A DNA stretch of 45,788 nucleotides from Rhodospirillales bacterium. Lineage in GTDB: Bacteria; Pseudomonadota; Alphaproteobacteria; BOG-932; Roseiterribacteraceae. The stretch covers positions 1-45,788 of the forward strand of contig JAQGIF010000377.1 of the NCBI GenBank assembly GCA_028291345.1, in the 5' to 3' direction. A program made the translations under genes and the position numbers. This document shows, piece after piece, positions 1,281-28,042 of this stretch. The notes under the pieces are model-generated. The model ran no database searches. It was not told where the DNA came from and saw nothing but the letters and a program-made list of their open reading frames with translations. How positions within the stretch are numbered: position 1 is the first letter of the stretch; every line of letters starts with the position of its first letter.

Positions 1281-1308
1281 TTGACAGCCGACAGAATAAA
1301 CATCTAAT
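1281..1308 (+). promoter_or_regulatory. Sigma-70-type promoter for the riboswitch leader
   Basis: A perfect -35 TTGACA at 1281-1286 is separated by 16 bases from TCTAAT at 1303-1308, which matches the -10 consensus in five of six positions. Transcription would begin near 1314-1316, right at the 5' edge of the riboswitch that follows. This placement supports both calls. Confidence 0.65.
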
Positions 1309-1314
1309 TACCTC

Positions 1315-1430
1315 ATTCATTGGGGAGTAGCCGCCCTCGGATTCATAGAGGGGCTCGCGTCAACATCCTTGGCTTCGGTCATGGCGCGATCGGTCGATTC
1401 GACTTGGCGAGACCACTGGTATCGACGTTC
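1315..1430 (+). promoter_or_regulatory. yybP-ykoY manganese riboswitch
   Basis: Three hallmarks of the yybP-ykoY RNA family occur in the right order: GGGGAGTAG at 1322-1330, GTCAACAT at 1359-1366, and GGCGAGACC at 1406-1414. The closing stem can form between CATTGG (1318-1323) and CCACTG (1413-1418), with one mismatch. A second stem forms from AGCC...CCTC after the first motif and GAGGGGCT before the second. Downstream, GGGTCGG (1437-1443) can pair with CCGACCC (1474-1480). That stem lies immediately before the AAGG ribosome-binding sequence of the exchanger gene, so control of translation initiation is plausible. This RNA class is established as an Mn2+ sensor that usually turns on manganese exporters. 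The identification is by eye, without a covariance-model score. Confidence 0.85.
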
Positions 1431-1493
1431 GTCCGTGGGTCGGGCGAGGGCGTCGAACCATTGGCTCGTGCGTCCGACCCTGAAGGCTCTTGG

Positions 1494-2501
1494 ATGAACC
1501 CCGTTTATTTAACGATTCCCCTGCTCCTCGGCTCGGCCGTGGTGATCTATCTTGCGTGCGAATATTTCGTAAACGGCGTGGAGTGGGTCGGCCGAAAATT
1601 CGCGGTCGGCCAACAGGCCACGGGCACAATCCTTGCGGCTTTTGGCACTGCTTTGCCGGAAAGCGTGGTTACCTTCGTCGCTGTGGTCTTCGGCGCCACG
1701 GCAGCGCAGAAGGCGATCGGCGTGGGCGCCGCGTTGGGCGGCCCCCTTGTCTTGGGAACCATTGCCTACGCGGTTGTCGGTTTGACACTTATCATCTGTC
1801 GTCAGCAGCTGCCGAAAACCGCTGCGATCAGAAGCGACTTTAAAAAATTAAGTCGTGATCAGGGCTGGTTCCTCTGGATCTTCATCGTGAAGGTCGCACT
1901 GGGTCTGGTCGCATTTGCCTATAAGCCATGGCTCGGAATCGTTTTTCTCGGCGCCTACGCAGCATATTTCCGGAAGGAGATGCGCGGCGGGCAGATTGAG
2001 GTAGAAGGCGAGCTTGAGCCTCTCAAGTTTATGCCCACGAGAGCGGCCCCGGAGACCTGGGCCGCCGTGACTCAGACCCTCTTCGCACTGGGTGTGATCT
2101 TCATAGCTTCAAGAATATTCGTCAGCCAGTTGGATGCGCTCGGACCAATGCTTGGAATCAAGCCACAGTTATTGGCCCTGCTTCTCAGCCCGATTGCGAC
2201 GGAGTTGCCCGAGACTCTGAATGCTGTGATCTGGGTTCGGCAGGGCAAACATCGTTTGGCGCTGGCGAACATCAGTGGCGCCATGATGATTCAAGCGACT
2301 ATGCCGACCGCGCTCGGCTTGTTCTTCACTCCGTGGCTACTTGACCGATCTCTCATCCTCGGCGCCATCGTCACGACTCTCGCGGTCGGGGCGATGTTCC
2401 TGGCATTTCGGCAGGGCTTTATCTCCCGGACATTCTTATCGCTTATGGGCCTGTTCTATGTCGCTTTTGCAGTGTTGCTCCTGATCCTTCGTCTGGGATG
2501 A
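1494..2501 (+). CDS. CaCA-family sodium/calcium-type cation exchanger, 335 aa
   Basis: This polytopic membrane protein has two inverted alpha repeats. The first contains G-T-A-L-P-E-S (residues 51-57) and the second S-P-I-A-T-E-L-P-E-T-L-N (232-243). The glutamates in these motifs are the expected cation ligands. A hydrophilic loop at about residues 105-125 and a second at 160-190 separate the two halves. The ATG at 1494 is chosen because the protein becomes membrane-like exactly there and an AAGG lies upstream. A longer reading from 1320 would run through the riboswitch and is rejected. Because a manganese riboswitch precedes it, the likely job is export of Mn2+ (inference); Ca2+ is the alternative. 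Confidence 0.85.
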   Translation: MNPVYLTIPLLLGSAVVIYLACEYFVNGVEWVGRKFAVGQQATGTILAAFGTALPESVVTFVAVVFGATAAQKAIGVGAALGGPLVLGTIAYAVVGLTLIICRQQLPKTAAIRSDFKKLSRDQGWFLWIFIVKVALGLVAFAYKPWLGIVFLGAYAAYFRKEMRGGQIEVEGELEPLKFMPTRAAPETWAAVTQTLFALGVIFIASRIFVSQLDALGPMLGIKPQLLALLLSPIATELPETLNAVIWVRQGKHRLALANISGAMMIQATMPTALGLFFTPWLLDRSLILGAIVTTLAVGAMFLAFRQGFISRTFLSLMGLFYVAFAVLLLILRLG

Positions 2502-2587: not shown

Positions 2588-2612
2588 GGAACCAATTGAA
2601 CGTGAGATGTTT
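2588..2612 (+). promoter_or_regulatory. Possible EcfG-type general-stress promoter
   Basis: GGAAC at 2588-2592 is followed after 16 bases by GTT at 2609-2611. This matches the GGAAC-N16/17-(C)GTT pattern known for the alphaproteobacterial general-stress sigma factor EcfG. The base before GTT is T rather than the preferred C. It would place a transcription start about 45 bases before the Rrf2 gene. Confidence 0.35.
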
Positions 2613-2663
2613 GTTTTCATGGGGCCGGCCGAAGCGCTCGCCGCATTTATGAGATCACGAACG

Positions 2664-3182
2664 ATGGCGCTGCTTTCATCGAAATTCATGCGGACCCTCC
2701 AACTCGTTCTGGATGCCGCCGTCAATTTCAGGCGAAGGCGAGTCAATGGGGACGAGCTTGTAGGACGGCAGGGATATCCCCCGCGCTATTACGAACCCAT
2801 ACTGAACGCGCTGGTGAAAGCAGGCATTCTGAAAGGCGCGCGTGGGCCGAATGGCGGCTATCACTTCAGCGCGGACCCGGAAGATATAACGCTGGCAGAT
2901 ATCGAGCATGTCGTTTCCAGCACCTCGATAAAAAAAGCCGAGGATACCGGTGAGCCGATTCCCATGCGAACCATGGTGACTGGGCCGCTATTTTCAGAAA
3001 TAGCAAAACGGTGGACCAGGCATTTGAGCGCGATCACCATCGCGGATCTTTGCCGGAAGGCGATGCGACTGTCCGGCGGCCGGGACTTACCGGTGGGGAC
3101 AATGCAAACCGCGGATCGAACTATCCCCTACGCCGACGCTCAGCCTTATGAAGAGGCGGAAATGCCTCCGCCGACGTCTTGA
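2664..3182 (+). CDS. Rrf2-family transcriptional regulator, 172 aa
   Basis: The N-terminal winged helix-turn-helix of the Rrf2 family is clear: a basic helix, then G-Y-P-P-R-Y-Y-E-P-I-L-N-A-L-V-K-A-G-I-L and the wing R-G-P-N-G-G-Y. The second half has the usual dimerisation helix ending I-T-I-A-D-L-C-R-K-A. There is one cysteine in the whole protein, so the three-cysteine Fe-S ligand set of IscR or NsrR is absent. The C-terminal tail of about 35 residues, rich in proline and acidic residues, is longer than usual. The start is placed at ATG 2664, where the homology begins; an ATG at 2607 is possible. It is a paralogue of the Rrf2 protein beside cysK in this window. Its target is unknown. Confidence 0.82.
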   Translation: MALLSSKFMRTLQLVLDAAVNFRRRRVNGDELVGRQGYPPRYYEPILNALVKAGILKGARGPNGGYHFSADPEDITLADIEHVVSSTSIKKAEDTGEPIPMRTMVTGPLFSEIAKRWTRHLSAITIADLCRKAMRLSGGRDLPVGTMQTADRTIPYADAQPYEEAEMPPPTS

Positions 3183-3780: not shown

Positions 3781-4719
3781 ATGCAGGTAATCCTAGCTCA
3801 GCCCCGCGGATTCTGCGCCGGCGTCGAGCGCGCCATCGAAATCGTCGAGCGTGCGATCGATAAATTCGGCGCACCGGTCTATGTCAGGCACGAAATCGTT
3901 CATAACCGCCATGTCGTCGAAAGCCTGCGCGCCAAGGGTGCGCATTTCGTCGATGAACTGGACGAGGTGCCCCCTGGCGGCATCACGATTTTCAGCGCGC
4001 ATGGTGTCGCCCAGTCGGTCGAAAAGGCAGCGGCCGAACGCGGCCTGCCGGTTATCGACGCGACTTGTCCGCTGGTCTCCAAGGTGCACATCGAGGGGCG
4101 ACGCTATGCGGCGCAGGACCGCACCGTGATCCTGATCGGCCATGCCGGCCATCCCGAGGTCGAGGGCACGATGGGGCAGATCCCCGGCGGCGTTCATCTG
4201 ATCTCCACGGTCGGAGACGTCGCCCGGCTCGAGGTCGCTGACCCTGACAAGCTGGCTTACGTCACCCAGACCACGCTCAGCGTCGACGATACCCGCGCAA
4301 TCATCGAGGCGCTACGGGCGCGGTTCCCCGCCATTTCGGGGCCTGACACTAAGGATATCTGCTACGCTACTCAGAACCGACAGCGCGCGGTGCGCGAACT
4401 CGCTACGGTTGTAGACGTTCTGCTGGTAGTGGGCGCGCGCAACAGTTCGAATTCCAACCGGCTCGCCGAGATCGGTACCGAGCTCGGTATTCCCAGCTAT
4501 CTGATCGAGGACGCCGAGGCACTGAACCCCGACTGGATCGCTGGCAAGACCTCGATCGGCATCACTGCGGGAGCCTCGGCGCCCGACACTCTGGTCACCG
4601 AACTGATTGAAACATTGCGCCGATATGCCGACATCCAGGTTTCGGCGCTGCCGGGCGTCGATGAGAATGTCAGGTTTCGTCTGCCGCCCGAACTTACGGA
4701 TCGGGCCAAAGTAGCGTAA
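3781..4719 (+). CDS. ispH: 4-hydroxy-3-methylbut-2-enyl diphosphate reductase
   Basis: This is the last enzyme of the MEP pathway. It converts HMBPP to IPP and DMAPP using a [4Fe-4S] cluster. The three cluster cysteines are C12 (G-F-C-A-G-V), C96 (D-A-T-C-P-L-V) and C194 (D-I-C-Y-A-T-Q-N). The substrate and proton-relay residues H41, H124 and E126 (H-P-E-V-E-G-T) are present. The length of 312 aa is normal. It sits 40 bases before hpnH and probably shares its transcript, which links isoprenoid supply with hopanoid modification. The ATG start coincides with the conserved N-terminus. Confidence 0.97.
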
Positions 4720-4759
4720 TATATGTTGAGTCCGCGTTTAGCGGATCAGGAGGTTATCC

Positions 4760-5923
4760 ATGGGCTTAGCGCTCAACCAGGTACTCAAAGTCGGCGCCTA
4801 TGTCGTCAAGCAGCAGCTCAAGGGTGTAAAGCGCTATCCGCTGGTGCTGATGCTCGAGCCTTTGTTCAAATGCAATCTCGCCTGCTCCGGCTGTGGCAAG
4901 ATCGACTACCCGGACGAGATCCTCAATCAGCGCCTATCGGTCGAACAATGCCTCGAGGCGGTCGACGAATGCGGCGCACCCGTCGTTTCCATCGCCGGCG
5001 GCGAACCGCTGCTGCATAAGGAAATGGCTGAGATCGTACGCGGCATCATCAAGCGCAAGAAATTCGTCATCCTCTGTACCAACGCCCTGCTGCTGGACAA
5101 GCGCATGGACGAGTACGAGCCCAACCCCTATTTCACCTGGGACATCCATCTCGACGGCGACCGCGAGATGCATGACGCCGCGGTTGATCAGAAGGGCGTG
5201 TATGACCGCGCCGTCGCCGTGCTGAAAAAGGCCAAGGCGCGCGGCTTCCGTGTCTGCATCAACACCACCCTGTTCAACAATGCCGATCCCGAGCGCGTCG
5301 CGAACTTCTTCGACGATATCAGCAAGCTGGGCATTGACGGCATCATGACCTCGCCGGGCTACGCCTATGAGCGCGCCCCCGACCAGGCGCATTTCCTGAA
5401 TCGGACGACGACCAAGAACTTGTTCCGCGACATCCTCCGCCGCGGCAAGGGCAAGAAATGGATGCTGGGCCACTCGCCCCTGTTCATGGATTTCCTGGCC
5501 GGCAACCAGACCTATGAATGCACGCCGTGGGGCAATCCGACCCGCAATTATTTCGGCTGGCAGAAGCCCTGCTACCTGATCGGCGAAGGCTATGTCAGCA
5601 GTTTCAAAGAGCTGATGGAAACCACGGATTGGGATGCTTATGGGGTCGGCAATTACGAGAAATGCGCCGATTGCATGGTCCATTCCGGCTTCGAGGCGAC
5701 CGCGGTTATCGATTCGGTGAAACATCCGCTGAAGGTGGCGATGGCCGCGATTCGCGGGCCGCGCACCGAAGGCCCCATGGCTCCGGATATCTCGCTGGAT
5801 AACCAGCGCCCGGCCGAATATGTCTTCTCGGACCATGTGAGGACCGCTATGGAGCGGCTGAAGCACACACCGAAAGCCGCCGCCAATTCCGATGCCAGCG
5901 TCTACGCGGAAAGCGCGGAATAA
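4760..5923 (+). CDS. hpnH: Adenosyl-hopene transferase, radical SAM
   Basis: HpnH joins the 5'-deoxyadenosyl group of SAM to diploptene, the first step in building the extended hopanoid side chain. The radical SAM signature C-N-L-A-C-S-G-C (C38, C42, C45) is present, followed by the S-I-A-G-G-E-P-L glycine-rich motif. A C-terminal set of cysteines occurs in the N-Y-E-K-C-A-D-C region. The 387 aa length is typical. A strong AGGAGG at 4748-4753, six bases before the ATG, fixes the start. The gene converges on hpnG, whose stop lies only 3 bases away on the other strand; the two products act in consecutive steps. Confidence 0.96.
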   Translation: MGLALNQVLKVGAYVVKQQLKGVKRYPLVLMLEPLFKCNLACSGCGKIDYPDEILNQRLSVEQCLEAVDECGAPVVSIAGGEPLLHKEMAEIVRGIIKRKKFVILCTNALLLDKRMDEYEPNPYFTWDIHLDGDREMHDAAVDQKGVYDRAVAVLKKAKARGFRVCINTTLFNNADPERVANFFDDISKLGIDGIMTSPGYAYERAPDQAHFLNRTTTKNLFRDILRRGKGKKWMLGHSPLFMDFLAGNQTYECTPWGNPTRNYFGWQKPCYLIGEGYVSSFKELMETTDWDAYGVGNYEKCADCMVHSGFEATAVIDSVKHPLKVAMAAIRGPRTEGPMAPDISLDNQRPAEYVFSDHVRTAMERLKHTPKAAANSDASVYAESAE

Positions 5924-5925
5924 GC

Positions 5926-6579
5926 CTAACGAGCCAGGCGATGAGTAGCGCGGCGCAGCGATTTGAGCGCCGCTCCAGTCTGCCGGGCTGTCCTGATCAG
6001 GGCCGGAATTTGTCCGGGGTTGCTGAGCACCGACCATAGGACGGCCAGCAGACGCGGTCGTCCCGATGGGCTCAGTGGCAGCAGGGCTGCCGGAGGCAGG
6101 CCGTGGCCCGCCGGATCGGCAATAGCGCGCAGCGCGACGAACGGGATATTATGCTCCATCGCCACCTTGGCGATCGCGGCGCTTTCCATATCGACCGCCA
6201 GCGCACCAGTCCGGGCGAAAATGGCAGCCTTTTCGCCCGGCGACGCCACAATCGTCCAGGCGCCATAGATCGCGCCGCTATGGCTCTTCACGATATTCGC
6301 CGATCCAGCCAAGGCCGGATAGGCCTCGAAATCGGTGATGATTTCCGTCGCAATCACTCGCGATCCGGGCCGCAAGCCGGGCGACAGCGCCCCGGCGATG
6401 CCAAAGCTCATTAAGGTCGTCACGCCGCTATTGATCAGTTCGAGCGCTTGGCGCGCCGCGACCTCGGGCCTGCCACCCGAGCAGAGCACGTGCGCCGTCA
6501 GCCGCCGCGCCAGTTTGGCCTCGGAGGCTAGGCCGACGACGATGCCGATCTCGTCGAATGGCGGGCATTTCGCTGTCAC
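5926..6579 (-). CDS. hpnG: Hopanoid-associated nucleosidase/phosphorylase
   Basis: HpnG removes adenine from adenosylhopane to give ribosylhopane, or phosphoribosylhopane by a phosphorylase route. The 217 aa protein belongs to the nucleoside phosphorylase/MTAN fold. Visible motifs are G-L-A-S-E-A-K near the N-terminus, S-F-G-I-A-G-A-L, and the substrate-binding V-D-M-E-S-A-A-I. I chose the GTG at 6579 because it overlaps the shc stop codon (A-T-G-T-G-A) and gives the normal family length. The open frame continues upstream inside shc, but that part is unlike the family. It is the last gene of the reverse-strand hopanoid operon. Confidence 0.93.
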   Translation of the reverse strand: MTAKCPPFDEIGIVVGLASEAKLARRLTAHVLCSGGRPEVAARQALELINSGVTTLMSFGIAGALSPGLRPGSRVIATEIITDFEAYPALAGSANIVKSHSGAIYGAWTIVASPGEKAAIFARTGALAVDMESAAIAKVAMEHNIPFVALRAIADPAGHGLPPAALLPLSPSGRPRLLAVLWSVLSNPGQIPALIRTARQTGAALKSLRRATHRLAR

Positions 6580-8528
6580 ATGCCCCAGGCCACAGCCTTG
6601 GTATTGCTGCGCATGAGGTTGCGATAGCGCGACACAGCCCATACCGGGAAGAACTGGCGATAGCCGTGATAGCGCAGATAGAAGACGCGGGGGAAGCCGA
6701 CAGCCGTATAGCTGTCCTCCTCCCATGATCCTTCGGCGGTCTGCGTGCGAGCGAGGAACTCGACGCCGCGTGCGACAGCCGGATTCTCAACCTCGCCCGC
6801 CGCCATCAGTCCCAGTACGGCCCAGGCGGTCTGTGACGCGGTCGATACGACCTTCGGGCTCTTTTCGACTCCGGCATAATAGGACTCGCCGCCTTCGCCC
6901 CAGCCGCCATCCTCTCCCTGGCAACCGAGCAGGAAAGCGACCGCTTTGCGCATTTCCGGTGCTGAAGCTTCCACGCCGACAGCGTTCAGCGCACACAGGG
7001 CCGACCAGGTGCCGTAGATATAGTTAGTGCCCCAACGACCGTACCACGATCCGTTCGGTTCCTGCTCGCGCCGCAGATAGTCAAGCGCGCGGGCGACCGC
7101 GGGATCGTCCTTGGTTCGCCCAAGCTGCGCCAGCATCCCGACGCAGCGCGCCGTCACATCGACGGTTGGCGGATCGAGCAAAGCCCCATGGTCTGCAAAC
7201 GGAATATGGTTGAGATAGTAATGTTCGTTATCGACCTCGAATGCGGCCCAGCCGCCGTTCGAGCTCTGCATCCCCTCTACCCATTCGGTGGCGCGCTCAA
7301 TCGCCGGCGTAAACTGGCCGTCCTGGCTGCGGTCCAGCGCCATCGCCACCACGGCGGTGTCGTCCAGGTCGGGATAATGTGCATTCTCATACTGGAAGGC
7401 CCATCCACCCGGCCGCAGATCGGGCCGGCGCGCGACCCAGTCGCCCTTGACGTCGAGGATCTGCTTGCCGCGCAGCCATTCCAGCCCGTGCTTGGCCTTT
7501 TCGATCGCTTCAGGCTCGCCGCTTTCCAGCAGCGCGTGGCAAGCCAGTCCGGTATCCCAGACGGGTGATACGCAGGGTTGGGCATAGAACCGCCCTTCCT
7601 TGTCGCCGGCCAGCAGCTTCTCGATCGACAGCTTGGCGACCACCAGATTGGGATCGTCCTTGGGGAATCCCAGGCACTCGTACATCATCACGGAATTGGC
7701 CATGGCGGGATAGATCGCGCCCAGCCCATCCTCGCCGTTCAGCCGCTCCGTAACCCAGGCCACGGCTAGATCGGTCGCCCGCTTGCGGGTGCTTTTGGGT
7801 ATCAACGGCTCTCCGACGCGCAGCACCTTGTCCAGTCCGCGGAAGAACGTGGCCCAGCCACTGCGGTCGTTGCTGGGATGCCAGTTCCTGACCTCATGCA
7901 CAGGCTCGGAGAACAGCTCGGGTATATCGATGCGAATCTTGGACTTGGGCTTCACCGCCATCAGGACGAGCAGCGGCACGATCACCGTTCGGCTCCAATA
8001 GGAGATTTTTTCCAGATGGAACGGGAACCAGCGTGGCAGGATCATGATCTCAACCGGCATAACCGGCACGGCGCGCCACGGCACTTGCTCGAACAGCGCG
8101 AGCATGATGCGCGTGAACACGTTGGTCCGCTCCGCACCGCCATGTGCCAGGATCGCCTTGCGGGCCCGCACCATATGCGGTGCATCGATCGAATCGCCCG
8201 CTGCCTTCAGCGCCCAATAGGCTTTGACCGTCGCGGAGATATCGAGCGGCCCGTTATGCCATAGCGGCCAACCCCCGTGGTCTGCCTGGGTTTCGCGGAT
8301 ATAACCGGCCAGCTTTTCCTGCTTCTCGAGATCGACTTCGTCGAGGAAATATTTCAGGAGGATATACTCGGCCGGAATCGTCGCATCGGCTTCGAGTACG
8401 AAGACCCAATGGCCGTCGTCGCGCTGCTGGTCGAGCAGAGCGCGTACGCCTTTCGAGATCGAGGCCTCAAGCTTCGAAGCCGTTAAACCTTCGGAATTAA
8501 ATTGCTCTGACAAACGTGCCCGCATCAT
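6576..8528 (-). CDS. shc: Squalene-hopene cyclase
   Basis: Shc (HpnF) folds squalene and cyclises it to hopene and hopanol at the membrane. The 650 aa length is typical. The catalytic D-x-D-D-T-A motif is D387-L-D389-D390-T-A. Several QW repeats are visible, for example Q-T-A-E-G-S-W at 596-602, Q-G-E-D-G-G-W at 537-543 and Q-S-S-N-G-G-W at 421-427. Two ATG codons stand in a row at the start. It overlaps hpnG by 4 bases and follows hpnB after 62 bases in the same direction, so the three are probably cotranscribed. Confidence 0.97.
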   Translation of the reverse strand: MMRARLSEQFNSEGLTASKLEASISKGVRALLDQQRDDGHWVFVLEADATIPAEYILLKYFLDEVDLEKQEKLAGYIRETQADHGGWPLWHNGPLDISATVKAYWALKAAGDSIDAPHMVRARKAILAHGGAERTNVFTRIMLALFEQVPWRAVPVMPVEIMILPRWFPFHLEKISYWSRTVIVPLLVLMAVKPKSKIRIDIPELFSEPVHEVRNWHPSNDRSGWATFFRGLDKVLRVGEPLIPKSTRKRATDLAVAWVTERLNGEDGLGAIYPAMANSVMMYECLGFPKDDPNLVVAKLSIEKLLAGDKEGRFYAQPCVSPVWDTGLACHALLESGEPEAIEKAKHGLEWLRGKQILDVKGDWVARRPDLRPGGWAFQYENAHYPDLDDTAVVAMALDRSQDGQFTPAIERATEWVEGMQSSNGGWAAFEVDNEHYYLNHIPFADHGALLDPPTVDVTARCVGMLAQLGRTKDDPAVARALDYLRREQEPNGSWYGRWGTNYIYGTWSALCALNAVGVEASAPEMRKAVAFLLGCQGEDGGWGEGGESYYAGVEKSPKVVSTASQTAWAVLGLMAAGEVENPAVARGVEFLARTQTAEGSWEEDSYTAVGFPRVFYLRYHGYRQFFPVWAVSRYRNLMRSNTKAVAWGM

Positions 8529-8590
8529 TGCGCCAGACTACCTTATCCCTTGAACGCGTAGCCGCTTTTTAAGACACAGCGTACGTCTAC

Positions 8591-9736
8591 TCAACGCGCG
8601 GCCTGAAAACGGCCTTTCCAGGCCCCACCCTTGCCCCGCATATGCCGCAGCGCAGAATCGAGTGTGGCGCCGAGATAAACCAAACCTACCACCGGAAGCA
8701 AGGGAGCCCACCAAAGCGGGCGCCCATAGAATCGCAGCATCGGACTATAGCACGCAGCCATGATTATCCAGGCCAGCAGTCCGAACAGGCTGGCGGCGCC
8801 GTGACAGAATAGGAACAGCAGCGGCGGCGCCAGGAAGGTGATACAAAGTCCCAGCACCGTGCCAAGCAACAGCAAGGGCGAATAGTTAAGCTGGGTATAC
8901 GCGGTGCGGGCCACCATCTGCCAAACCTCCGAGATATCCTTGTAGACACGCAGGCTCTGCGCATCGTTGGTCAGGCTGAGCCAGATCGGTCCATTCCGCT
9001 TCATCGCGGCCGCTAGTGCGCAATCGTCAATCAACGCGCCTTTGATCGCCGCGATCCCGCCGATGCGCTCCAACGCCGATCGGCGCACAAGCATGCAGCC
9101 GCCGGCGGCCGCCGCGGTTTTGTTCGACGGATCGTTCACACGAGAGAACGGGTAGAGCATTTGGAAGAAGAAGACGAAGGCGGGGATCAGCATCTGTTCG
9201 GCGATGCTCTTGCAGCGCAGCCGTACCATTAGCGACGTCAAATCCAGTGCTCCGGCTTCCGCCCGCGCGACCAGATGCACGACATTGCGGTCGCCGTGGC
9301 TGATGTCGCCATCGGTCAGCAGGACATAGCGGGCGCTGGAATCGATTTCAGCAGCCTTGGCCAGACCTTGGGATACGGCCCACATCTTTCCCGTCCAGCC
9401 CACGGGGGTGGGCGTCCCTGAGATGACGTGGAGGCGCTCTGGCGCTCCGGCGGAAGCAGCCGCACGGTGCGCCGTCTCGGCGGTACCGTCGGTGCTTTCA
9501 TCATCGACGACGACGACGCTGATGCGGCCTTTGAAATCCTGATCGAGCAGCGATGCTACCGCGCGGCCGATCCCCTCAGCCTCGTTACGCGCCGGTATAA
9601 CGGCGACGACGCTCGGCCATTCGCGCGGCGTGTCGGGCAGGGGAGAGATGCTCGTCCGCCAGAAGCCGCCATGGCGCAGCCACAGCACCATCCAGATCAT
9701 GAAAGTCAGCGCTCCCAGCAGCCAGCCGATGCTCAT
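8591..9736 (-). CDS. hpnB: Hopanoid-associated GT2 glycosyltransferase
   Basis: HpnB-type proteins are GT-A fold glycosyltransferases of hopanoid gene clusters; their acceptor is not firmly known. The 381 aa product starts with one membrane helix. Next comes the GT2 core: V-V-A-V-I-P-A-R-N-E-A, V-V-V-D-D-E-S-T-D-G-T, and a D-G-D metal motif (L-L-T-D-G-D-I). The C-terminus has several membrane helices. The ATG at 9736 overlaps the hpnA stop as A-T-G-A, which marks translational coupling. A longer frame to 9763 exists but lies within hpnA. Confidence 0.92.
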   Translation of the reverse strand: MSIGWLLGALTFMIWMVLWLRHGGFWRTSISPLPDTPREWPSVVAVIPARNEAEGIGRAVASLLDQDFKGRISVVVVDDESTDGTAETAHRAAASAGAPERLHVISGTPTPVGWTGKMWAVSQGLAKAAEIDSSARYVLLTDGDISHGDRNVVHLVARAEAGALDLTSLMVRLRCKSIAEQMLIPAFVFFFQMLYPFSRVNDPSNKTAAAAGGCMLVRRSALERIGGIAAIKGALIDDCALAAAMKRNGPIWLSLTNDAQSLRVYKDISEVWQMVARTAYTQLNYSPLLLLGTVLGLCITFLAPPLLFLFCHGAASLFGLLAWIIMAACYSPMLRFYGRPLWWAPLLPVVGLVYLGATLDSALRHMRGKGGAWKGRFQAAR

Positions 9737-10728
9737 TGCAGATATCCCGCCTCTCGAAACCATGTGACCGCATCGGCCAGCCCCTGGATGGCCGGCCGGG
9801 TCGCGTAGCCAAGTTCCCGCTCGGCTTTAGCCGAAGAAAAAAACATACGCTTGCGCGCCATGCGCAACGTATCGCGGGTTAGCATCGGCTCGCGCCCAGT
9901 GAAGCGCGCCAAAAACTCGGCGCCGAGCGCCAGCGGATAGAGCGGACCGACCGGCAGGCTGATCGTCGCCGGGCGCTGCCCGCTCATCCCGGCAATTTCC
10001 ATCTGCATTCTGGCCAGCGAAAAATCCTCGCCGCCCAATATATAGCGCTCGCCCGGTTTCCCCTTGGCGAAGGCCAGCAGATGACCGGCGGCGCAATCGT
10101 CGACGTGCACGAGATTCAGCCCCGTATCGACATAGGCCGGCATCTTTCCGGTCGCCGCCATGACAATGGTGCGTCCGGTCGGCGTCGGCTTGATATCGCG
10201 CGGCCCGATCGGGGTGGATGGATTGACCGTCACAACCGGGAGGCCGGTTTCGTTTGCTGCCTTGGCGACGGCTTCCTCGGCCAGATATTTCGAGCGCTTA
10301 TAGTGCCCAATCATGTCGGCAAGCGTGACCGGCGTATTTTCATCGGCCGGCTTGCCGCTTTTATCGATGCCGAGCACGGCCACGCTGCTGGTATAGACTG
10401 CGCGACCGACGCCGGCTTTTGCGGCGGCTCGGATCAAGGCGGCGCTGCCGGCGACGTTGGTGCGGTACATAGCATCTGGATCGCGCACCCAGAGCCGGTA
10501 GTCCGCCGCAACATGGAAAAGGGCACTACATCCCTTCAGCGCCGGCTCCAGTGTCTCAGGCCTGCTCAGATCGCCGCTGACGATCTCGACATCGATGCCT
10601 TCCAGATTACGTTTGTCGCTCTCCGGCCGGGCCATGACCCGGACTTGGTGCCCTTCAGCAATCAGCGCGCGCGCGACCGCCGAACCCAGAAAGCCCGTTG
10701 CCCCCGTCACCAATGCCGTTTCGGCCAT
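9733..10728 (-). CDS. hpnA: Hopanoid-associated sugar epimerase/SDR
   Basis: This extended short-chain dehydrogenase/reductase of 331 aa is of the HpnA type found in hopanoid clusters. The NAD(P)-binding motif G-A-T-G-F-L-G is at residues 9-15. The catalytic Y143-K-R-S-K147 pair and the Y-T-S-S-V strand before it are intact. The substrate is unproven; a role in sugar-nucleotide or side-chain chemistry is usually assumed. It lies between the CopD-type gene (30 bases upstream) and hpnB (4-base overlap), so it belongs to the same operon. Confidence 0.93.
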   Translation of the reverse strand: MAETALVTGATGFLGSAVARALIAEGHQVRVMARPESDKRNLEGIDVEIVSGDLSRPETLEPALKGCSALFHVAADYRLWVRDPDAMYRTNVAGSAALIRAAAKAGVGRAVYTSSVAVLGIDKSGKPADENTPVTLADMIGHYKRSKYLAEEAVAKAANETGLPVVTVNPSTPIGPRDIKPTPTGRTIVMAATGKMPAYVDTGLNLVHVDDCAAGHLLAFAKGKPGERYILGGEDFSLARMQMEIAGMSGQRPATISLPVGPLYPLALGAEFLARFTGREPMLTRDTLRMARKRMFFSSAKAERELGYATRPAIQGLADAVTWFREAGYLQ

Positions 10729-10758
10729 GTCCGTCTGCGTTCCTTTGAGGTTTTATCG

Positions 10759-12432
10759 TCAGGCTTCGCGATAATTGAGCAGCAACAGCCCGATCAGAAC
10801 ATAGGTTATCGGCCAGATCGTTCGAAACACACGATTGTCGGGTGGTAGCAAGCGAAGTTCCAGCCAGCGGCTCCATGCCGACCCAACGGCGAGCAACGCC
10901 AGTGGAATATGCGTCAACTCGATCAGGAATTGTTCCTTCACATCGGAGATGTTGTGTGAATGCATCAACAGCATGCCGCCACCGATCGCAGTCAGGATGG
11001 GAAAGACCAGCGGGGCCCAAGGCTGCTTCAGGCGCTCTGTCCTCACACCCCATTCAAACAGGCCGAAGACGATCACAAGCAGCACGATAACCTTGTGCTG
11101 GAAAGGTTCGGCGTCTTTCAGGCTTTCCCAAAAGCCAATCGGACCCAGCGGCCAATCCTCTGGATCAGACCGGATAAACAGGAAGGCGGCTAGTCCGAGG
11201 AAAACCAGCGGCCAGTGCCGGGTCCAGCGGGTGCCCCGCCAGCCGCTATGTTCAAGAATAGCCAATATCCCAATGACGAGCACAAAAACGCCAGCCCAAT
11301 GGTGGTTATATTCCGACCATGCGATATCGGCCGGAACACGCTGGACCAGCACGCCGGTACCAGGAACATAAGCGCGTGGATGCTGCTCGGCGTTGGCGCC
11401 GGCCTTTGCTTCGGCGTCCAATTTCAATTGAAGGGCGGGAATGGCCATCTCGTCATAGGCAGGGCTAATCAGGCGGGGTGGCCAGACCGGGGACATGCGC
11501 GACGCCGTCACTGACCAGGGAACCTGGTCGAAAGGCTGGTCGATCGATGGCGGCGAAGATGTGATCGACGCGGCGAGGGCGAAGACCGAGAGACCGATGC
11601 CGACTTCGACCTCGGCGAAGCGCCGCATCCGCAGGATTGGCGTCGAAGTATCGGCGCGCAGCCGCTCGACAACGCGAAAATTCAGAAAACCCAGAGATAG
11701 CAGGATGCCAAGCAGGGCGACCTTGCCGATGACCATCACGCCGTAGGATGTACCGTACAGGCCCTGCCAAGAGCCGACGAACACGTAAGCCAGTACTAAT
11801 CCGGCCAGGACCAGACCGGCAACGCTGACCATCGACATTACGGAAAAGCGCTTACCGATCCGCCGCCAGGCGATGCCATTATGGGTTCGGGCGAGGGCGA
11901 TGATGAAGTAAGGAATTCCGCCGATCCAGATCGATGCGCCGAGTTGATGGATGCCGTCGGCGAAAGCCATAGGCACGCGTCCCGTCATGCGGGAGACTGA
12001 ATGGCTGTTTACCGCGGCAGCGATCAGGAGGATTGCGGCCAACAGGGCTAGCGCCCAGCGGCGTCCGGCGCCGACCGACGGGCTGGAAGCCAGGATGAAG
12101 ACACCTATCGCCGCCCCGATTCGCACCATTTCGGCGAGGGCGAAGTTTGCCATTAGGCCCTGCGAAATCGGAACGTCGGCCGATCCGTAAAGCAGCAGGA
12201 CATTGATGATGATATAGGCGACGGCGCCCAGGACCGCGATGCAGGCGCCCCACCGCAGCAGCATACGGCAGCGCCTGAGGATTTCATCCGCCTCCGCTCC
12301 GATCTCGGCGCGAAATGGCAGGACGACCAGCAGGATAAATGCAATCCCGCCAATCATCAGCGCCTGGGTCGCCAGCGCGATCAGTCGCAGAACAACGTCG
12401 AGAAAGCCGAATAGATCGAAGAGTAATTCCAC
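10759..12432 (-). CDS. CopD-family multi-pass membrane protein, 557 aa
   Basis: The N-terminal half (about residues 1-285) is a CopD-like bundle of about eight membrane helices. It includes H-Q-L-G-A-S-I-W-I-G-G, the characteristic copper-resistance D segment. A periplasm-sized hydrophilic stretch (about 295-365) follows. A second block of helices has histidine-containing segments E-Y-N-H-H-W and L-M-H-S-H-N-I. CopD proteins are linked to copper uptake or handling; the C-terminal half is of unknown role. It is embedded in the hopanoid operon between hpnL and hpnA, 30 bases before hpnA. Whether it transports a metal, binds a cofactor or serves hopanoids cannot be told from sequence. Confidence 0.78.
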   Translation of the reverse strand: MELLFDLFGFLDVVLRLIALATQALMIGGIAFILLVVLPFRAEIGAEADEILRRCRMLLRWGACIAVLGAVAYIIINVLLLYGSADVPISQGLMANFALAEMVRIGAAIGVFILASSPSVGAGRRWALALLAAILLIAAAVNSHSVSRMTGRVPMAFADGIHQLGASIWIGGIPYFIIALARTHNGIAWRRIGKRFSVMSMVSVAGLVLAGLVLAYVFVGSWQGLYGTSYGVMVIGKVALLGILLSLGFLNFRVVERLRADTSTPILRMRRFAEVEVGIGLSVFALAASITSSPPSIDQPFDQVPWSVTASRMSPVWPPRLISPAYDEMAIPALQLKLDAEAKAGANAEQHPRAYVPGTGVLVQRVPADIAWSEYNHHWAGVFVLVIGILAILEHSGWRGTRWTRHWPLVFLGLAAFLFIRSDPEDWPLGPIGFWESLKDAEPFQHKVIVLLVIVFGLFEWGVRTERLKQPWAPLVFPILTAIGGGMLLMHSHNISDVKEQFLIELTHIPLALLAVGSAWSRWLELRLLPPDNRVFRTIWPITYVLIGLLLLNYREA

Positions 12433-12483
12433 GGGACTTGAACCTGGGGGTTACGACGTTGAAAGGTGGTGTCGGAACGTCAC

Positions 12484-13530
12484 CTACAGCACCCTGGTGT
12501 CCATTTCCACCATGCGTCGGCGTTGGCGCAGCTGAAGTTCTTGCCACTGCCATGCGGCAAGGCCCGGCAGCCCCAACGCCAATTCCCTGACACGCTTAGT
12601 CAGCGAGATTGATAAGGCGGCATCCGGCGGTACGCCGAACAAGCCCGCCAGCACCATAAACCCACCTTCCTGGATGCCCACCGCGCCGGGAACGAAGAAC
12701 GCCGCGCTGCGAATGGCCTGGGCCAGGCTTTCGATCACGTAAGACTGTCCGAGATTGAGGTGATAGCCCAGCGCCCAGGCTGCGATCATGACTTCGCCCG
12801 CGCCGAGCGACCAGGCAACCATATGATGCAGCCCGGCCAGGAACAATTTGCCGCGCATCTGGTAGACTTGGGTCAGCGCCACATCAAGTCCGGCAACCCC
12901 CTCCAGGCGGTCCCAGCCTAGCCGCGCGGCAATGGCGAGCAGCAACTTCTCGAAAAGCCGTACTCCGCCCCAACGCTGGGCAAACACTGCCAGCGCGGCG
13001 AAAAGCAGGGCAATCGCGAATCCGAGCGCTGCCCAATGCGCGACATCGCCGGGAACGGCCAAAAGGAAGATCAGGGCGAAACCTATCAAGGTGAACGCCG
13101 CCTGGGTCAATGTTTCGATCGTGACATCGGCGATGATCGAGGCACCGGCGATGGGGAGCACGATTCCGCCTGTCGCAAGGAGCCTGGACACCGCTATTTC
13201 GCCGCCGACCTGCGCCACCGGCAACAGGCTGTCGATCGATTCCCGTATCCAGCGTAGAGCCAGCAGCTGGACAATACCGGGGCGCCCCCCGACCGCCGAT
13301 GTGTTGAACAGCGAGCCCCAGGCAAAAGTACAGAAGGCGAGCTGACCGACATGCACCAGCATGATCGCGGGAAGGCCCAGACCGACACTGACCAATTCGG
13401 TCCAAATGCGGGCGAAGCCGAGATCGGCAATGGCGAAAAACAGCGCGATTCCAAAAATAGCGGCGGTGCCGAGACCAAAGCCGAGCGTGCCAGCACGGAA
13501 GGAGAATCGGGGAAAGCGAATTCTGATCAT
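12484..13530 (-). CDS. hpnL: HpnL-type membrane protein, 348 aa
   Basis: This integral membrane protein of the lysylphosphatidylglycerol synthase TM-domain (UPF0104-like) family is of the version found in hopanoid clusters and called HpnL. It has about eight hydrophobic segments, with conserved features such as S-L-L-P-V-A-Q-V-G-G-E and F-F-V-P-G-A-V-G-I-Q-E-G-G. By analogy with related proteins it may move lipids between leaflets or export hopanoids, but this is inference. The start at ATG 13530 has AGGGAGG a few bases upstream; the longer frame to 13578 would run into the mgtC end. It is followed by the CopD-type gene after 51 bases. Confidence 0.85.
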   Translation of the reverse strand: MIRIRFPRFSFRAGTLGFGLGTAAIFGIALFFAIADLGFARIWTELVSVGLGLPAIMLVHVGQLAFCTFAWGSLFNTSAVGGRPGIVQLLALRWIRESIDSLLPVAQVGGEIAVSRLLATGGIVLPIAGASIIADVTIETLTQAAFTLIGFALIFLLAVPGDVAHWAALGFAIALLFAALAVFAQRWGGVRLFEKLLLAIAARLGWDRLEGVAGLDVALTQVYQMRGKLFLAGLHHMVAWSLGAGEVMIAAWALGYHLNLGQSYVIESLAQAIRSAAFFVPGAVGIQEGGFMVLAGLFGVPPDAALSISLTKRVRELALGLPGLAAWQWQELQLRQRRRMVEMDTRVL

Positions 13531-13574
13531 GCCTCCCTTTATCCGGTCACGGTCGCGCCGGATAGGGCAAGGGG

Positions 13575-14126
13575 TCAATCGTCCTCGGTGGTGGTGCTCG
13601 TGCCTGGCAAGCGGATTTCTCCCATCTCCGCCGCGCGCTCGATTTCCAGGCGCCTATTTTTGATGTCGTGCGGCTCGATCATGCGGATAAAAATCAGGAT
13701 AGCCAGTCCCAACACGGCCGCCACGATCCCCAGCCGGAACTGCCCCACGCCGAACACTATGCCCAGTCCGCCGGCCAGCCAGACCCCGGCGCCTGTCGTC
13801 AGCCCGTGAACTTTATGCTGCCCTCGGATGATTGCGCCGGCGCCGAGAAACGACATGCCGGTGATGATGCCCTGTAATATGCGGGTAGCGTCGGGATTGC
13901 TCCCCGGTCCGCGATCGCTTTCCATCAGATAGAGATCGATCGACATGATCGACATCATCGCACAAGCCAGCGCGAAGAGCATGTGCGTCTTGAGGCCCGC
14001 GGGTTTGCGCAGCCATTCCCGATCCAACCCGATCGCACCCCCGGCGGCGAGGGCGGCTGCGAGCCGTACGATGATCTGGGTCCACGTGAAATGGGAATTG
14101 TCCATGTTGACAACCAGAATAGCCAT
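13575..14126 (-). CDS. MgtC/SapB-family membrane protein, 183 aa
   Basis: The MgtC/SapB domain is recognisable from G-G-A-I-G-L-D-R-E-W, followed by G-L-K-T-H-M-L-F-A-L, then G-M-S-F-L-G-A-G-A-I and V-H-G-L-T-T-G-A-G-V-W. Four to five membrane helices are followed by a cytoplasmic tail of about 40 residues. MgtC proteins affect growth in low Mg2+ and inhibit F-type ATP synthase in pathogens; the role in environmental bacteria is less clear. It is the first gene of the reverse-strand hopanoid operon and diverges from hpnCD over about 105 bases. The start is uncertain between ATG 14126 and ATG 14105. Confidence 0.82.
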   Translation of the reverse strand: MAILVVNMDNSHFTWTQIIVRLAAALAAGGAIGLDREWLRKPAGLKTHMLFALACAMMSIMSIDLYLMESDRGPGSNPDATRILQGIITGMSFLGAGAIIRGQHKVHGLTTGAGVWLAGGLGIVFGVGQFRLGIVAAVLGLAILIFIRMIEPHDIKNRRLEIERAAEMGEIRLPGTSTTTEDD

Positions 14127-14231
14127 CGCGATGTGTCACGTCGATCCATTGCGACACAGGTGGATTGTCTGCATCGTCAACACCATCAAACCGTCTTGTC
14201 CTTCCGACCATACGCGGCTACCCGTATCGCC

Positions 14232-15935
14232 ATGACTGTTTCGCAAACAGGCGGAGAGCGGATCGCTCAAACGCCGATTATCGCAACACCGACCAAGGAT
14301 GCCGGCGGGGAGAATTTCCCGGTTGGATCGTGGCTGCTGCCCAAGGCCCTGCGCCGGCATGTCGCCGCCTATTATCGGTTTGCGCGGACCGCCGACGATA
14401 TCGCCGACTCGCCGACGTTGACCCGCGAGGACAAGCTGTCCGGGCTGGCCGCGATGGATGCGGCGCTGGCCCAGGGCGGCGACGATCGCGTCGATCCTAT
14501 CCTCGCATCGATCGCGGAAACCGGGATCGGTTTGGCGGAATGCCGTGACCTTCTGGTCGCCTTCAACCGCGATGCCCGGAATCTGAGCTGCGAAAGCTGG
14601 GACGATTTGATCGATTATTGCCGGCACTCCGCTCACCCGGTGGGGCGCTATCTGTTGTTGATCCATGGCGAGGATCCCGACACGCTGGCTCCCGGCGATG
14701 CGCTCTGCGCGGCGTTCCAGATATTGAACCACTTGCAGGATTGCGGGGACGATTGGCGCAATCTGGAACGCATCTATATCCCGCGACGCTGGATTGTGGC
14801 CGCAGGCGGCGAGGAACGATTCTTTGAGCCGGCCGCCGCCGATCTGCGGCGTCCGGTACTCAACCGCTGTCTGGACGGCACCGACCGGCTGATCGAAACC
14901 GCATGCCTCCTGCCGGGCCGCTTGAAGTCGCGAGGGCTAAAGGCCGAGGTGTCCGTCATGCTTTCGCTGGTCAAGGCGTTGGCCGAACGACTCCGGCACG
15001 GCGATCCGATTCAATCCAGGGTCAAGCTGACGCGTGGAGATTTTGCCCGCGCGCTGCTGCCTGGCTTAAAGGTTCTGGCCGGGGGAACGCCGAGACTGAC
15101 CCCAGACAAGGATATCGTCGCCGCCGCCGTCGCCCACGCCGGTTCGTCCTTCACCAAGGGCATGCAGATACTGCCCAGGGAACGCCGGCGTGCCATGTAC
15201 GCGCTTTACGGCTTTTGCCGCGCGGTCGACGACATCGTTGATGCACCGGCGCCAGTCGACGACAAGCGCGCCGAACTCAGCGCCTGGAGTGCCGAACTCG
15301 ACCGGATTTATGATGGGCAAGGCAATTACGCTCTAGGGCGCGAACTGGTCGATGCGGTGCGGCGCTATGGCTTGCCGCGCGACGAGTTCGACCTGATCCT
15401 CGAAGGAATGATGATCGACGCGGCGCCGGTGGTTCGTATCGCCGATCGCCAGGGTCTCTCGGATTACGCCCGGCGGGTGGCCGGCGCGGTCGGCGTATTA
15501 TCGTGCCGGATCTTCGGGGCGCCCGGTCTCGAGGCAAAGAATTTCGCGATCTACCTGGGCGAAACGCTGCAATTGACCAATATTCTGCGCGACGTAGATG
15601 AGGACGCCACAATCGACCGTCTCTATCTGCCGCTCGACATGATCCGGGCCGCGGGCATCTCGACGGATCAGGATACTAAGGCGATCGTCGTCGATCCGCG
15701 CATTGTCGGAGTCTGCGAAGCGCTGGCGGCGGAAGTCACCGAACGCTACCGGCTGTTGCCCGATAGGACCCCACGCGCTTATTGGCGGGAGTTACGCTCG
15801 GCGCGGATCATGCAGATGGCCTATGGGCTGGTGTTCCGCAAACTCGTCACGCGGGGCTGGCGGCAGCGAGATCTGCGGCCGCGCCTGACCAAGCGTGAAG
15901 GGCTGTCCACACTCCTGTCCTCATATCGCCGATGA
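14232..15935 (+). CDS. hpnCD: HpnC-HpnD fusion, squalene-synthase-family enzymes
   Basis: Two complete trans-isoprenyl diphosphate synthase domains are joined in one 567 aa frame. Residues about 25-275 match HpnC (hydroxysqualene synthase), with Asp motifs D-D-I-A-D (55-59) and D-C-G-D-D (170-174). Residues about 295-567 match HpnD (presqualene diphosphate synthase), with D-D-I-V-D (333-337) and D-V-D-E-D (454-458). In other bacteria these are usually separate neighbouring genes. Here about 20 residues link them and both metal-binding sets are kept, so both sites may work. HpnD makes presqualene diphosphate from two farnesyl diphosphates, and HpnC converts it to hydroxysqualene. The ATG at 14232 is chosen because homology begins about 25 residues later. 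The stop overlaps the hpnE start as A-T-G-A. Confidence 0.93.
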   Translation: MTVSQTGGERIAQTPIIATPTKDAGGENFPVGSWLLPKALRRHVAAYYRFARTADDIADSPTLTREDKLSGLAAMDAALAQGGDDRVDPILASIAETGIGLAECRDLLVAFNRDARNLSCESWDDLIDYCRHSAHPVGRYLLLIHGEDPDTLAPGDALCAAFQILNHLQDCGDDWRNLERIYIPRRWIVAAGGEERFFEPAAADLRRPVLNRCLDGTDRLIETACLLPGRLKSRGLKAEVSVMLSLVKALAERLRHGDPIQSRVKLTRGDFARALLPGLKVLAGGTPRLTPDKDIVAAAVAHAGSSFTKGMQILPRERRRAMYALYGFCRAVDDIVDAPAPVDDKRAELSAWSAELDRIYDGQGNYALGRELVDAVRRYGLPRDEFDLILEGMMIDAAPVVRIADRQGLSDYARRVAGAVGVLSCRIFGAPGLEAKNFAIYLGETLQLTNILRDVDEDATIDRLYLPLDMIRAAGISTDQDTKAIVVDPRIVGVCEALAAEVTERYRLLPDRTPRAYWRELRSARIMQMAYGLVFRKLVTRGWRQRDLRPRLTKREGLSTLLSSYRR

Positions 15936-17179
15936 CGGTTCACGTCATAGGGGCCGGATTGTCCGGCTTGGCCGCCGCTGTTGCGCTGGCTGATAAGGGG
16001 CGGCGCGTCGTGGTCTATGAGGCGGCAGCGCAGCCCGGCGGCCGGTGTCGATCCTATCATGACCGTGAAATCGACCGGGTGATCGATAATGGCAACCACC
16101 TGGTTCTGTCGGGCAATGAAAACGTCCGGCGCTATTTGCGGCTTGTCGGGGCCACGGACCGGCTTGTCGGTCCGATAGGCGAAGGCTTCCGGTTCCTGGA
16201 CCTAGCGCGGGGACGCAGTTTCGCCGTGCGGCCCAATGACGGGCCGATCCCCTGGTGGATATGCGATGCCTCTCGACGCGTGCCCGACACCAGTGCCCTG
16301 AATTATCTTTCCACGATCCGACTGGCCTTCGCTCGGGCAGGCACGGCGGTTGCGGATATTCTGCCGCATGACGAACTCTATCGGGTCCTGTGGGAGCCTT
16401 TGGCAGTTTCGGCTTTGAATACCCCGGTCGAGGAGGCATCGGCGCAGGGCTTCTGGCGCGTGCTGGCGAAAACATTGGCGCGCGGTGGCTCGTTCGCACG
16501 TCCGCTTATCGCCCGCGAAACGCTGGCTGACGCGTTCGTGACACCCGGCGTCCAATTCCTGGCGGCACGCGGTAGCAGCGTTCGGCTCGGAACGCGGATC
16601 AAGCGGCTGGTCTTCACCGGGCAACGCGTCAGCGGATTTATGTCGGATTGCGGCGACGAGGATTGGACCGCCGGAGACCGGATGATCATGGCGGCACCGC
16701 CGGCAATAGCCGAACGCCTGGTTCCTGGGCTCCAAGCGCCTGGAGCGGACGAACCGATTGTTAATGCGCATTTCGCGACATCGGATCCCGAGGGAACGCC
16801 GCTGGAGGTCGTCGCCGTCGTCGGCGGCGCGGCCCATTGGGTGTTCCGGCGCCCCGGCCTCGCAAGCGTTACGGTGAGCGCGGCCCGTGCGATGGTAGAC
16901 GAGCCGGCTGAGACGCTGGCGCCACGTTTATGGGCGGATGTAGCGCGCGCATTTCCAGCATTGGGCCCGGCGATGCCGCCGTACAGGATCATCAAGGAAA
17001 AACGTGCGACAATCCGCCAGTCGCCGGCTGACGAAGCAGTCCGGCCCGATTTTTTGACGAAATACGATAATCTGTGGCTGGCCGGAGATTGGACCCGGAC
17101 AGGTCTGCCCGCGACGATCGAGGGCAGCCTGTTATCAGGTTTTCGCGCCGCCGAAGCCGCGCTCAAGGCTGGCAGTTAG
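15932..17179 (+). CDS. hpnE: Hydroxysqualene reductase, FAD-dependent
   Basis: HpnE reduces hydroxysqualene to squalene, the last step of the three-enzyme HpnCDE route. The 415 aa protein has the N-terminal Rossmann FAD motif V-I-G-A-G-L-S-G-L with the downstream [11 protein letters not shown] of amine oxidase/phytoene-desaturase-like flavoproteins. It also has the C-terminal flavin motif L-A-G-D-W-T. Its start overlaps the hpnCD stop by 4 bases, so translation is coupled and the whole squalene pathway comes from one transcript. Its last 4 bases overlap the end of cysK on the opposite strand. Confidence 0.95.
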
Positions 17180-26401: not shown

Positions 26402-28042
26402 GTGACACACAGGACATATACGACTCGCGACAGCCTGGCCGGATCCTCTCGTCTCCGCTTGTCCGGCTATTTGCTGGCCTTCCTGGCACTGCCGTTCTTC
26501 GCGGTTTGGGCCGTGATCTACGGCAAGGAAGCCGGTTGGGACTTCCAGAATTATCATTGGTACGATCCGTATTCCCTCCTGTCCGGCCGGCTTGGGTTCG
26601 ATATCGCCGTCGCGCATCACGCGACCTATTACAATCCGTTCCTCGACGTCCCGCTTTATTGGGTCGCAACTCATTTCCCGGCCTGGACCGGCGGGGCTCT
26701 GCTCGGCGCGGAGGCGGGAGTTGCCGCTGCTTTGATCGGCGCTATCGCCTATCGCCTGCTTCCATTCGAGAACACACGCCAGCGTATGGCGGTTGCCGTA
26801 CTGCTCGCTCTTTCTGCAATGACCGGCGGCGGAGCCGCGGGGGAAATCGGCAAAACATCCGACGATATCGCCGCTGGCCTCGGGGCAATCGCCGGCCTCT
26901 TCGTGCTGATTGCCTGTTTCGATCGCGTTGTGCGCGCCAAGGGCGCCGATCTCCTGTTCATTGCGCTCGCGGGGTTTCTCGCGGGTGGGTCGCCCGGCCT
27001 GAAACTGACCTCACTTCCTTACGTCGTCGGCATGACTCTGGGCGTGCTCGCGTTACCAGGCGGATTCTGGCTTCGCATCCTACGCACTGGCGTATTTGGC
27101 ATAGGCGTTCTCATCGGCATCGCGGTGTTCGGCGGCGCATGGTTCTGGACCATATGGCAGTATAGCGGGAACCCGGTCTTCCCATATTTCAACGACCTGT
27201 TCCATTCGCCTCTGGTGCCGCCGGGCAGCTATCGCGACGAGACATTCCTGCCCAAGGACTGGTCCACGCGGCTCTTCTTCCCGTTCATCTTCAGCCAGAA
27301 TTCGCTGACCGTGGCGGAGTGGTCGTTCCGCGACCTCCATATACTGATCGCCTATATCCTCGTGCCGGTTGCGGCGCTCGCCGCTTTGTTCCGCAAACCG
27401 GTCGGGCGCCGGCTGGTCGATCCGCTGATGGCGCGGCTGATGTTGGTGATGGCGGTCGGCACCTATGTCGTTTGGATATTCCTCTTCGGCATCTATCGTT
27501 ATCTGATCCCGCTGGAGATGCTGTCCGGCCTGGTGATCGTGTCGGCGGCGGCGATGCTGCCTTTGCGATCCGGCGTACGCCTGGCAATCATGGTCGTACT
27601 GCTGGGCGGCGCGCAGGTGATGGCCTGGAAGGGCGAGGAGCCGCGTTTCAGCTGGCAAGGGCCCTATGTCGGCGTCACCGTTCCACCGATCGCCGATCCC
27701 GCCAATACACTGATCCTGATGACCGAAAACGCGCCCATGGCCTATGTCATTCCGGCCTTTCCAAAGGAAATTCCCTTCCTGCGGATCCAGGGCTGGATGA
27801 TCGGCTCGAAGGACACCAGTTCGATGCTCGGCGCCGAAATGCATAGACGCGTCGCCGAGCATAAAGGTCCGATACTGGGCCTGTATTGGCCGGTCGAACA
27901 TGAGGCGACGGTCGGTGCTTTCGCCGATTACGGATTGAAACTCGATGATGCCGCCTGCAAGCCGGTCGAGAGCAATATCCAGGAACCGATCGACCAGGGC
28001 CACCCCTTGCTTCTGTGCCCTTTGATAAGGATGACGCCATGA
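26402..28042 (+). CDS. Multi-pass membrane protein, GT-C-like, 546 aa
   Basis: About ten or more hydrophobic segments fill the protein. The first outer loop carries G-W-D-F-Q-N-Y-H-W-Y-D-P-Y, with acidic residues placed as in GT-C membrane glycosyltransferases, which use polyprenyl-phosphate sugars. A hydrophilic C-terminal domain of about 130 residues follows. No family could be named with confidence. The GTG start at 26402 is preceded by AGGG and is the best available. Its stop overlaps the start of the GtrB-like gene as A-T-G-A. By position it would be the specificity transferase of a Gtr-type system (inference). Confidence 0.7.
   Translation: MTHRTYTTRDSLAGSSRLRLSGYLLAFLALPFFAVWAVIYGKEAGWDFQNYHWYDPYSLLSGRLGFDIAVAHHATYYNPFLDVPLYWVATHFPAWTGGALLGAEAGVAAALIGAIAYRLLPFENTRQRMAVAVLLALSAMTGGGAAGEIGKTSDDIAAGLGAIAGLFVLIACFDRVVRAKGADLLFIALAGFLAGGSPGLKLTSLPYVVGMTLGVLALPGGFWLRILRTGVFGIGVLIGIAVFGGAWFWTIWQYSGNPVFPYFNDLFHSPLVPPGSYRDETFLPKDWSTRLFFPFIFSQNSLTVAEWSFRDLHILIAYILVPVAALAALFRKPVGRRLVDPLMARLMLVMAVGTYVVWIFLFGIYRYLIPLEMLSGLVIVSAAAMLPLRSGVRLAIMVVLLGGAQVMAWKGEEPRFSWQGPYVGVTVPPIADPANTLILMTENAPMAYVIPAFPKEIPFLRIQGWMIGSKDTSSMLGAEMHRRVAEHKGPILGLYWPVEHEATVGAFADYGLKLDDAACKPVESNIQEPIDQGHPLLLCPLIRMTP

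Follow-up and report, generated by a model that had tools for sequence, protein, structure and literature searches.

A probable Mn2+-detoxification unit combining a yybP-ykoY riboswitch with a CaCA-fold exchanger in a Rhodospirillales bacterium

Features of the locus

The whole stretch of 45,788 nt that was analysed (the window) carries a promoter, a leader RNA and the gene of a CaCA-superfamily protein in succession on the plus strand. The features are listed below with the evidence for each in brackets; the clade named in the last line is that of the Bordetella pertussis gene BP3410.

1281–1308, plus strand: sigma-70-type promoter, TTGACA at 1281–1286, a 16-base spacer and TCTAAT at 1303–1308 (sequence)
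1310–1489, plus strand: RF00080 yybP-ykoY Mn2+ riboswitch, aptamer and platform (Infernal, whole model)
1317–1419, plus strand: aptamer core (sequence, Infernal and conservation in 21 leaders)
1322–1330, plus strand: L1, GGGGAGTAG (sequence)
1359–1366, plus strand: GTCAACAT element of the aptamer (sequence)
1406–1414, plus strand: L3, GGCGAGACC (sequence)
1413–1464, plus strand: stem A, 1413–1435 with 1441–1464 (covariation, RNAalifold consensus)
1437–1480, plus strand: stem B, 1437–1446 with 1471–1480 (conservation of pairing in 21 leaders)
1482–1486, plus strand: probable Shine-Dalgarno sequence GAAGG, 7 nt before the ATG (sequence)
1494–2501, plus strand: gene of a CaCA-superfamily exporter of the BP3410-type clade, putatively of Mn2+, 335 aa (Pfam, AlphaFold2 model, clade alignment)

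The outer limits of the unit, 1281 and 2501, had been placed correctly in the preliminary description. A longer TTG-started frame (1320–2501) was not taken as the gene; it passes through the aptamer.

Promoter and aptamer

The promoter, which had been read in the preliminary description as TTGACA-16-TCTAAT, is borne out by the sequence and by the enrichment of its −35 motif in related leaders, since a TTGAC precedes L1 in 36 of 67 homologous leaders (3 expected from shuffled sequences), and its distance is in most cases exactly 41–42 nt. The Mn2+ riboswitch proposed there is supported by the Infernal search, in which RF00080 scored 69.9 bits (E 2.2e-16, model positions 1–177) against a gathering score of 45 bits and was the sole Rfam match of the whole window. 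The three signature stretches GGGGAGTAG, GTCAACAT and GGCGAGACC follow one another in yybP-ykoY order, as had been described, and the L1 and L3 core is invariant or almost invariant across the 21 leaders. The P1 strands (1317–1323 and 1413–1419) can close as claimed, but the helix is imperfect, with one internal mismatch. Apart from this mismatch, the conserved L1 and L3 loops around a P1-closed junction are those of the yybP-ykoY class.

Conservation of the riboswitch–exchanger pairing

A scan of species genomes with a profile of the clade gave 239 confirmed relatives, and 80 loci were fetched. RF00080 was found above its gathering score just upstream of the gene in 61 of these 80 loci and above the cut-off in 0 of 20 ordinary CaCA loci. 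The riboswitch-bearing loci belong to Alpha-, Beta- and Gammaproteobacteria, and others among them carry deltaproteobacterial, planctomycete (Tautonia) or actinobacterial titles. In the Achromobacter group, a clade member was present in 43 of 43 genomes. Two members titled "clostridial" (L098 and L103) have partial motifs, none above the cut-off. The presence of the riboswitch is clustered on the protein tree, with 14 changes against a shuffled mean of 26 (0 of 500 shuffles as low).

RF00080 was not found upstream of the three closest homologues in the sampled alphaproteobacteria (L010–L012, 59–64% identity), one of which, L010 (identical in sequence to L075), is the clade member of the same genus. 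Because no above-threshold riboswitch precedes this gene or the genes of 19 of the 80 loci, several of which have sub-threshold motifs, control by Mn is not universal in the clade. The view that the pairing is rare, which came from its absence in L010–L012, was overturned by the wide genome scan. That the pairing is a matter of chance, or of a recently captured neighbour without functional meaning, could be argued from the riboswitch-free copy of the same-genus relative; the conservation of the pairing in 61 of 80 clade loci against 0 of 20 controls, together with a covarying platform and a spacing that is near-constant among closer relatives, already refutes this explanation, which we regard as extremely improbable.

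The window gene is nearer to copies in Rhodanobacteraceae, Pseudomonas and Phenylobacterium (75–78% identity) than to the riboswitch-free member of its own genus (64%), so that horizontal exchange of the riboswitch–exporter unit is likely, as judged from these identities.

Several other arrangements were observed around related genes. A distant sister branch, with about 36% identity, also includes riboswitch members: L141 with 85.4 bits, which shares the ATELPE motif, and L146, recognised by motif. Each of these two loci carries a tmRNA gene downstream. In three Pseudomonas loci (L041, L043 and L044), a Mg2+ M-box riboswitch lies on the minus strand at about 2240–2450, some 370–410 bases upstream of the Mn2+ riboswitch, so that the two switches face apart. 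In Collimonas-type loci (L092, L097, L101, L102, L112 and L126), a guanidine-II riboswitch lies within about 0.5 kb after the exporter gene.

The exchanger and its ion site

The 335-aa product matches Pfam PF01699 (Na_Ca_ex) in two stretches with 91.3 bits (E 7.9e-26), and its AlphaFold2 model (mean pLDDT 88.9) adopts the CaCA fold; its best match is NCLX (Z 33.8), and NCX1, VCX1, CAX and NCX_Mj (Z 21.7) match as well. The CaCA exchanger gene of the preliminary description, with its ATG at 1494, is thereby confirmed, and the Na_Ca_ex domain, the two alpha repeats and the fold place the protein in the CaCA superfamily. It is not a YrbG antiporter by the family models: TIGR00367, with a cut-off of 179.65 bits, gave 69, and PRK10734, with one of 432, gave 26.3. 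YrbG/TIGR00367 antiporters and NCX_Mj share with the clade the CaCA fold and the GT-x-LPE and AT-E-LPE alpha repeats; in contrast, the window protein has less than 30% identity to ordinary CaCA proteins, and Na+-site residues are replaced in the clade. The yrbG gene of V. vulnificus is also predicted to be under a yybP-ykoY riboswitch (PMC13274385).

For the ion site, the clade was aligned to NCX_Mj and one ordinary CaCA protein, and invariance was assessed over 39 members. The two essential glutamates and two essential threonines of NCX_Mj are kept (E54/E213 as E56/E240 and T50/T209 as T52/T236), whereas six other positions are changed: S51 to A53, S77 to G83, N81 to L87, S210 to E237, S236 to A263 and D240 to Q267. 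The altered residues are invariant in the 39 members, save at position 263 (A in 34, S in 5), and the second alpha repeat holds both an extra invariant glutamate, E237, and an invariant MMxQ motif. The window protein lacks the side chains of an NCX-type Na+ site (S77, N81, S236 and D240 in NCX_Mj numbering). The lost residues bind Na+ in the NCX_Mj structure. Because most of the Na+-binding side chains of NCX_Mj are missing, export is probably driven by a coupling other than the NCX Na+ cycle. These residues are offered as a set for testing how a Ca2+/Na+ exchanger fold can turn to Mn2+.

Other Mn exporters in the host genome

The host genome has a single RF00080. Neither MntP nor UPF0016/GDT1 (MneA) was found in this 97%-complete draft, in a gap of which either gene could lie; TerC-family and Nramp-family genes are present. 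Because both MntP and MneA are missing from the assembly, the exchanger appears to replace them as the riboswitch-controlled Mn exporter of the host. In related alphaproteobacteria, the same riboswitch precedes these other known Mn exporters, UPF0016/GDT1 (MneA, Mnx) and MntP, which belong to other Pfam families. A broader proposal is that the clade forms a separate CaCA-fold family rebuilt for Mn2+, with export driven by H+ or another non-Na+ ion, and that Proteobacteria have in it one of their chief Mn exporters under riboswitch control, in place of MntP and MneA; we consider this quite possible, though somewhat short of probable.

Five full-length Nramp-family genes occur in the host genome (contigs C169, C267, C121, C229 and C99), a notable count of possible divalent-metal importers against one riboswitch-linked exporter.

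BP3410 and the transported ion

BP3410 of B. pertussis was shown in 2021 to be a CaCA-superfamily Mn2+ exporter under a yybP-ykoY riboswitch; its expression is induced by Mn and not by Ca, cells without its function contain about 5-fold more Mn as measured by ICP-MS, and the gene is inactivated by a 10-aa duplication in most B. pertussis strains (PMC8546581). A 2023 review already names BP3410 a Ca2+:cation-exchanger-type Mn exporter (PMC9936198), which makes the earlier remark that the substrate assignment of this branch was still open out of date.

Among matches of the Achromobacter family (L118), genome G1021 stood out by a repeat of about 10 residues. Its locus (L209) contains an alpha repeat with an exact 30-bp/10-residue tandem duplication, RF00080 at 61.2 bits and the promoter TGCTACAAT that PMC8546581 gives. 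The encoded protein shares 54% identity with the window protein over residues 4–326 and is placed next to Achromobacter within the clade on the protein tree. On the strength of the duplication and promoter signatures, L209 is presumably BP3410 of B. pertussis. The window gene lies in the same protein clade and directly downstream of the same yybP-ykoY leader, with the −10 element at an equal place. Unlike the window copy, BP3410 has the 10-aa duplication, a longer leader and a reported control at the RNA level.

The proposal of the preliminary description that the exchanger exports Mn2+ rather than mainly Ca2+ is, by analogy with this clade member and in light of the clade-wide pairing and the lack of MntP and MneA in the genome, well supported. 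A riboswitch that senses Mn2+ may nevertheless control a transporter whose main cargo is Ca2+ or some other divalent ion, the Mn response then being cross-talk. The CaCA fold, the Pfam name and a Ca2+ site with its EE/TT core preserved would fit this alternative, as would a Streptococcus P-type ATPase under Mn-riboswitch control that is reported to move both Ca2+ and Mn2+. Against it, BP3410 brings cellular Mn down about 5-fold and is not induced by Ca, the ion site is altered in a manner that is invariant in 39 members, and the host has no other riboswitch-linked Mn exporters; we therefore hold the alternative to be improbable. Taken as a whole, the locus is very probably a self-contained Mn2+-detoxification unit consisting of a riboswitch-controlled CaCA-fold Mn2+ exporter.

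The type of substrate was already known through BP3410; new are how widely the clade extends, how its ion site is altered and how the switch is built. A result for a single Bordetella gene is thereby extended to a clade-wide prediction, in which many genes annotated as calcium/sodium antiporters, with 239 confirmed relatives from one scan, are probably Mn2+ exporters.

Expression platform and possible mechanism of control

Two stems follow the aptamer. Stem A covaries, with double changes in 11 of 21 pairs and 37 double-change cells against 14.1 after shuffling (0 of 500 shuffles as high). Stem B corresponds to the second stem that had been noted at 1437–1480 just before the ribosome binding site, and it is upheld by the homologous leaders, in 21 of which its nine aligned pairs are paired in 98.9% of cells, two of them with double changes; its 3' end lies 1 nt before the Shine-Dalgarno sequence. 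Stem A recruits the P1 3' strand, and since A and B share bases, the formation of one excludes the other. As far as sequence comparison goes, the two stems are a covarying, conserved switch adjoining the ribosome binding site; which way it switches, and that it acts on translation, we infer.

A pairing of 1316–1328 (the P1 5' strand and L1) with 1486–1498 (the start region) is predicted in the window. Across species, the P1 5' strand and L1 pair better with their own start region than with regions swapped in from other species (equalled in 3 of 2000 permutations), by a signal that is small (0.7 kcal/mol) and that relatedness can inflate. Because this cross-species signal is modest, sequestration of the Shine-Dalgarno sequence is kept as a conditional step in the mechanism, and a strong, universal sequestration was dropped.

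Based on these features, a possible mechanism is proposed. Transcription from the sigma-70-type promoter would yield a leader RNA with the yybP-ykoY Mn2+ aptamer. Without Mn2+, the P1 3' strand may extend stem A, and the 5' strand so released, together with L1 (CCUUUGGGGAG-like), may pair with the CCCC/Shine-Dalgarno/start region, so that translation would be blocked. At high cytosolic Mn2+, L1 may dock to L3 and P1 close, as is known for this riboswitch class. With P1 closed, stem A would be shortened and stem B could be formed by the GGGUCGG and CCGACCC strands, whereby the Shine-Dalgarno sequence and the AUG would be freed. Control at translation, as the anatomy of the switch suggests, is thus plausible. 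In E. coli, the mntP and alx riboswitches (RF00080) belong to the same aptamer class and also directly precede Mn-handling genes, and control of mntP is translational (PMC11647493). The transporter family downstream differs in these two cases, and stems A and B were compared within the exchanger clade.

Control by Mn2+ could instead be mainly transcriptional, by a Rho-dependent or factor-assisted stop in the leader rather than by hiding of the ribosome binding site. This alternative is a serious one because control at the RNA level was reported in Bordetella, where a leader RNA of about 200 nt and induction by Mn at the mRNA level were found and taken to mean that polymerase halts inside the riboswitch (PMC8546581), and the long GC-rich stems A and B between aptamer and gene would suit it. 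Since stem B is followed by no U-tract, no intrinsic terminator is evident, and the conserved length of the platform, as well as the conserved position of the Shine-Dalgarno sequence adjoining stem B, speaks for translational control. On balance, a mainly transcriptional control seems a real but rather doubtful possibility, and translational control remains the preferred reading.

Other genes of the window

An Rrf2-family regulator gene (2607–3182) lies between the exporter gene and a hopanoid/isoprenoid gene cluster at 3781–17179, which comprises an ispH-like ORF, an HpnH-like radical SAM ORF and genes for a phosphorylase, a squalene-hopene cyclase, a squalene/phytoene synthase and amine-oxidase-type proteins. 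At 26402–28042 on the plus strand, a 546-codon open frame without a Pfam match was observed.
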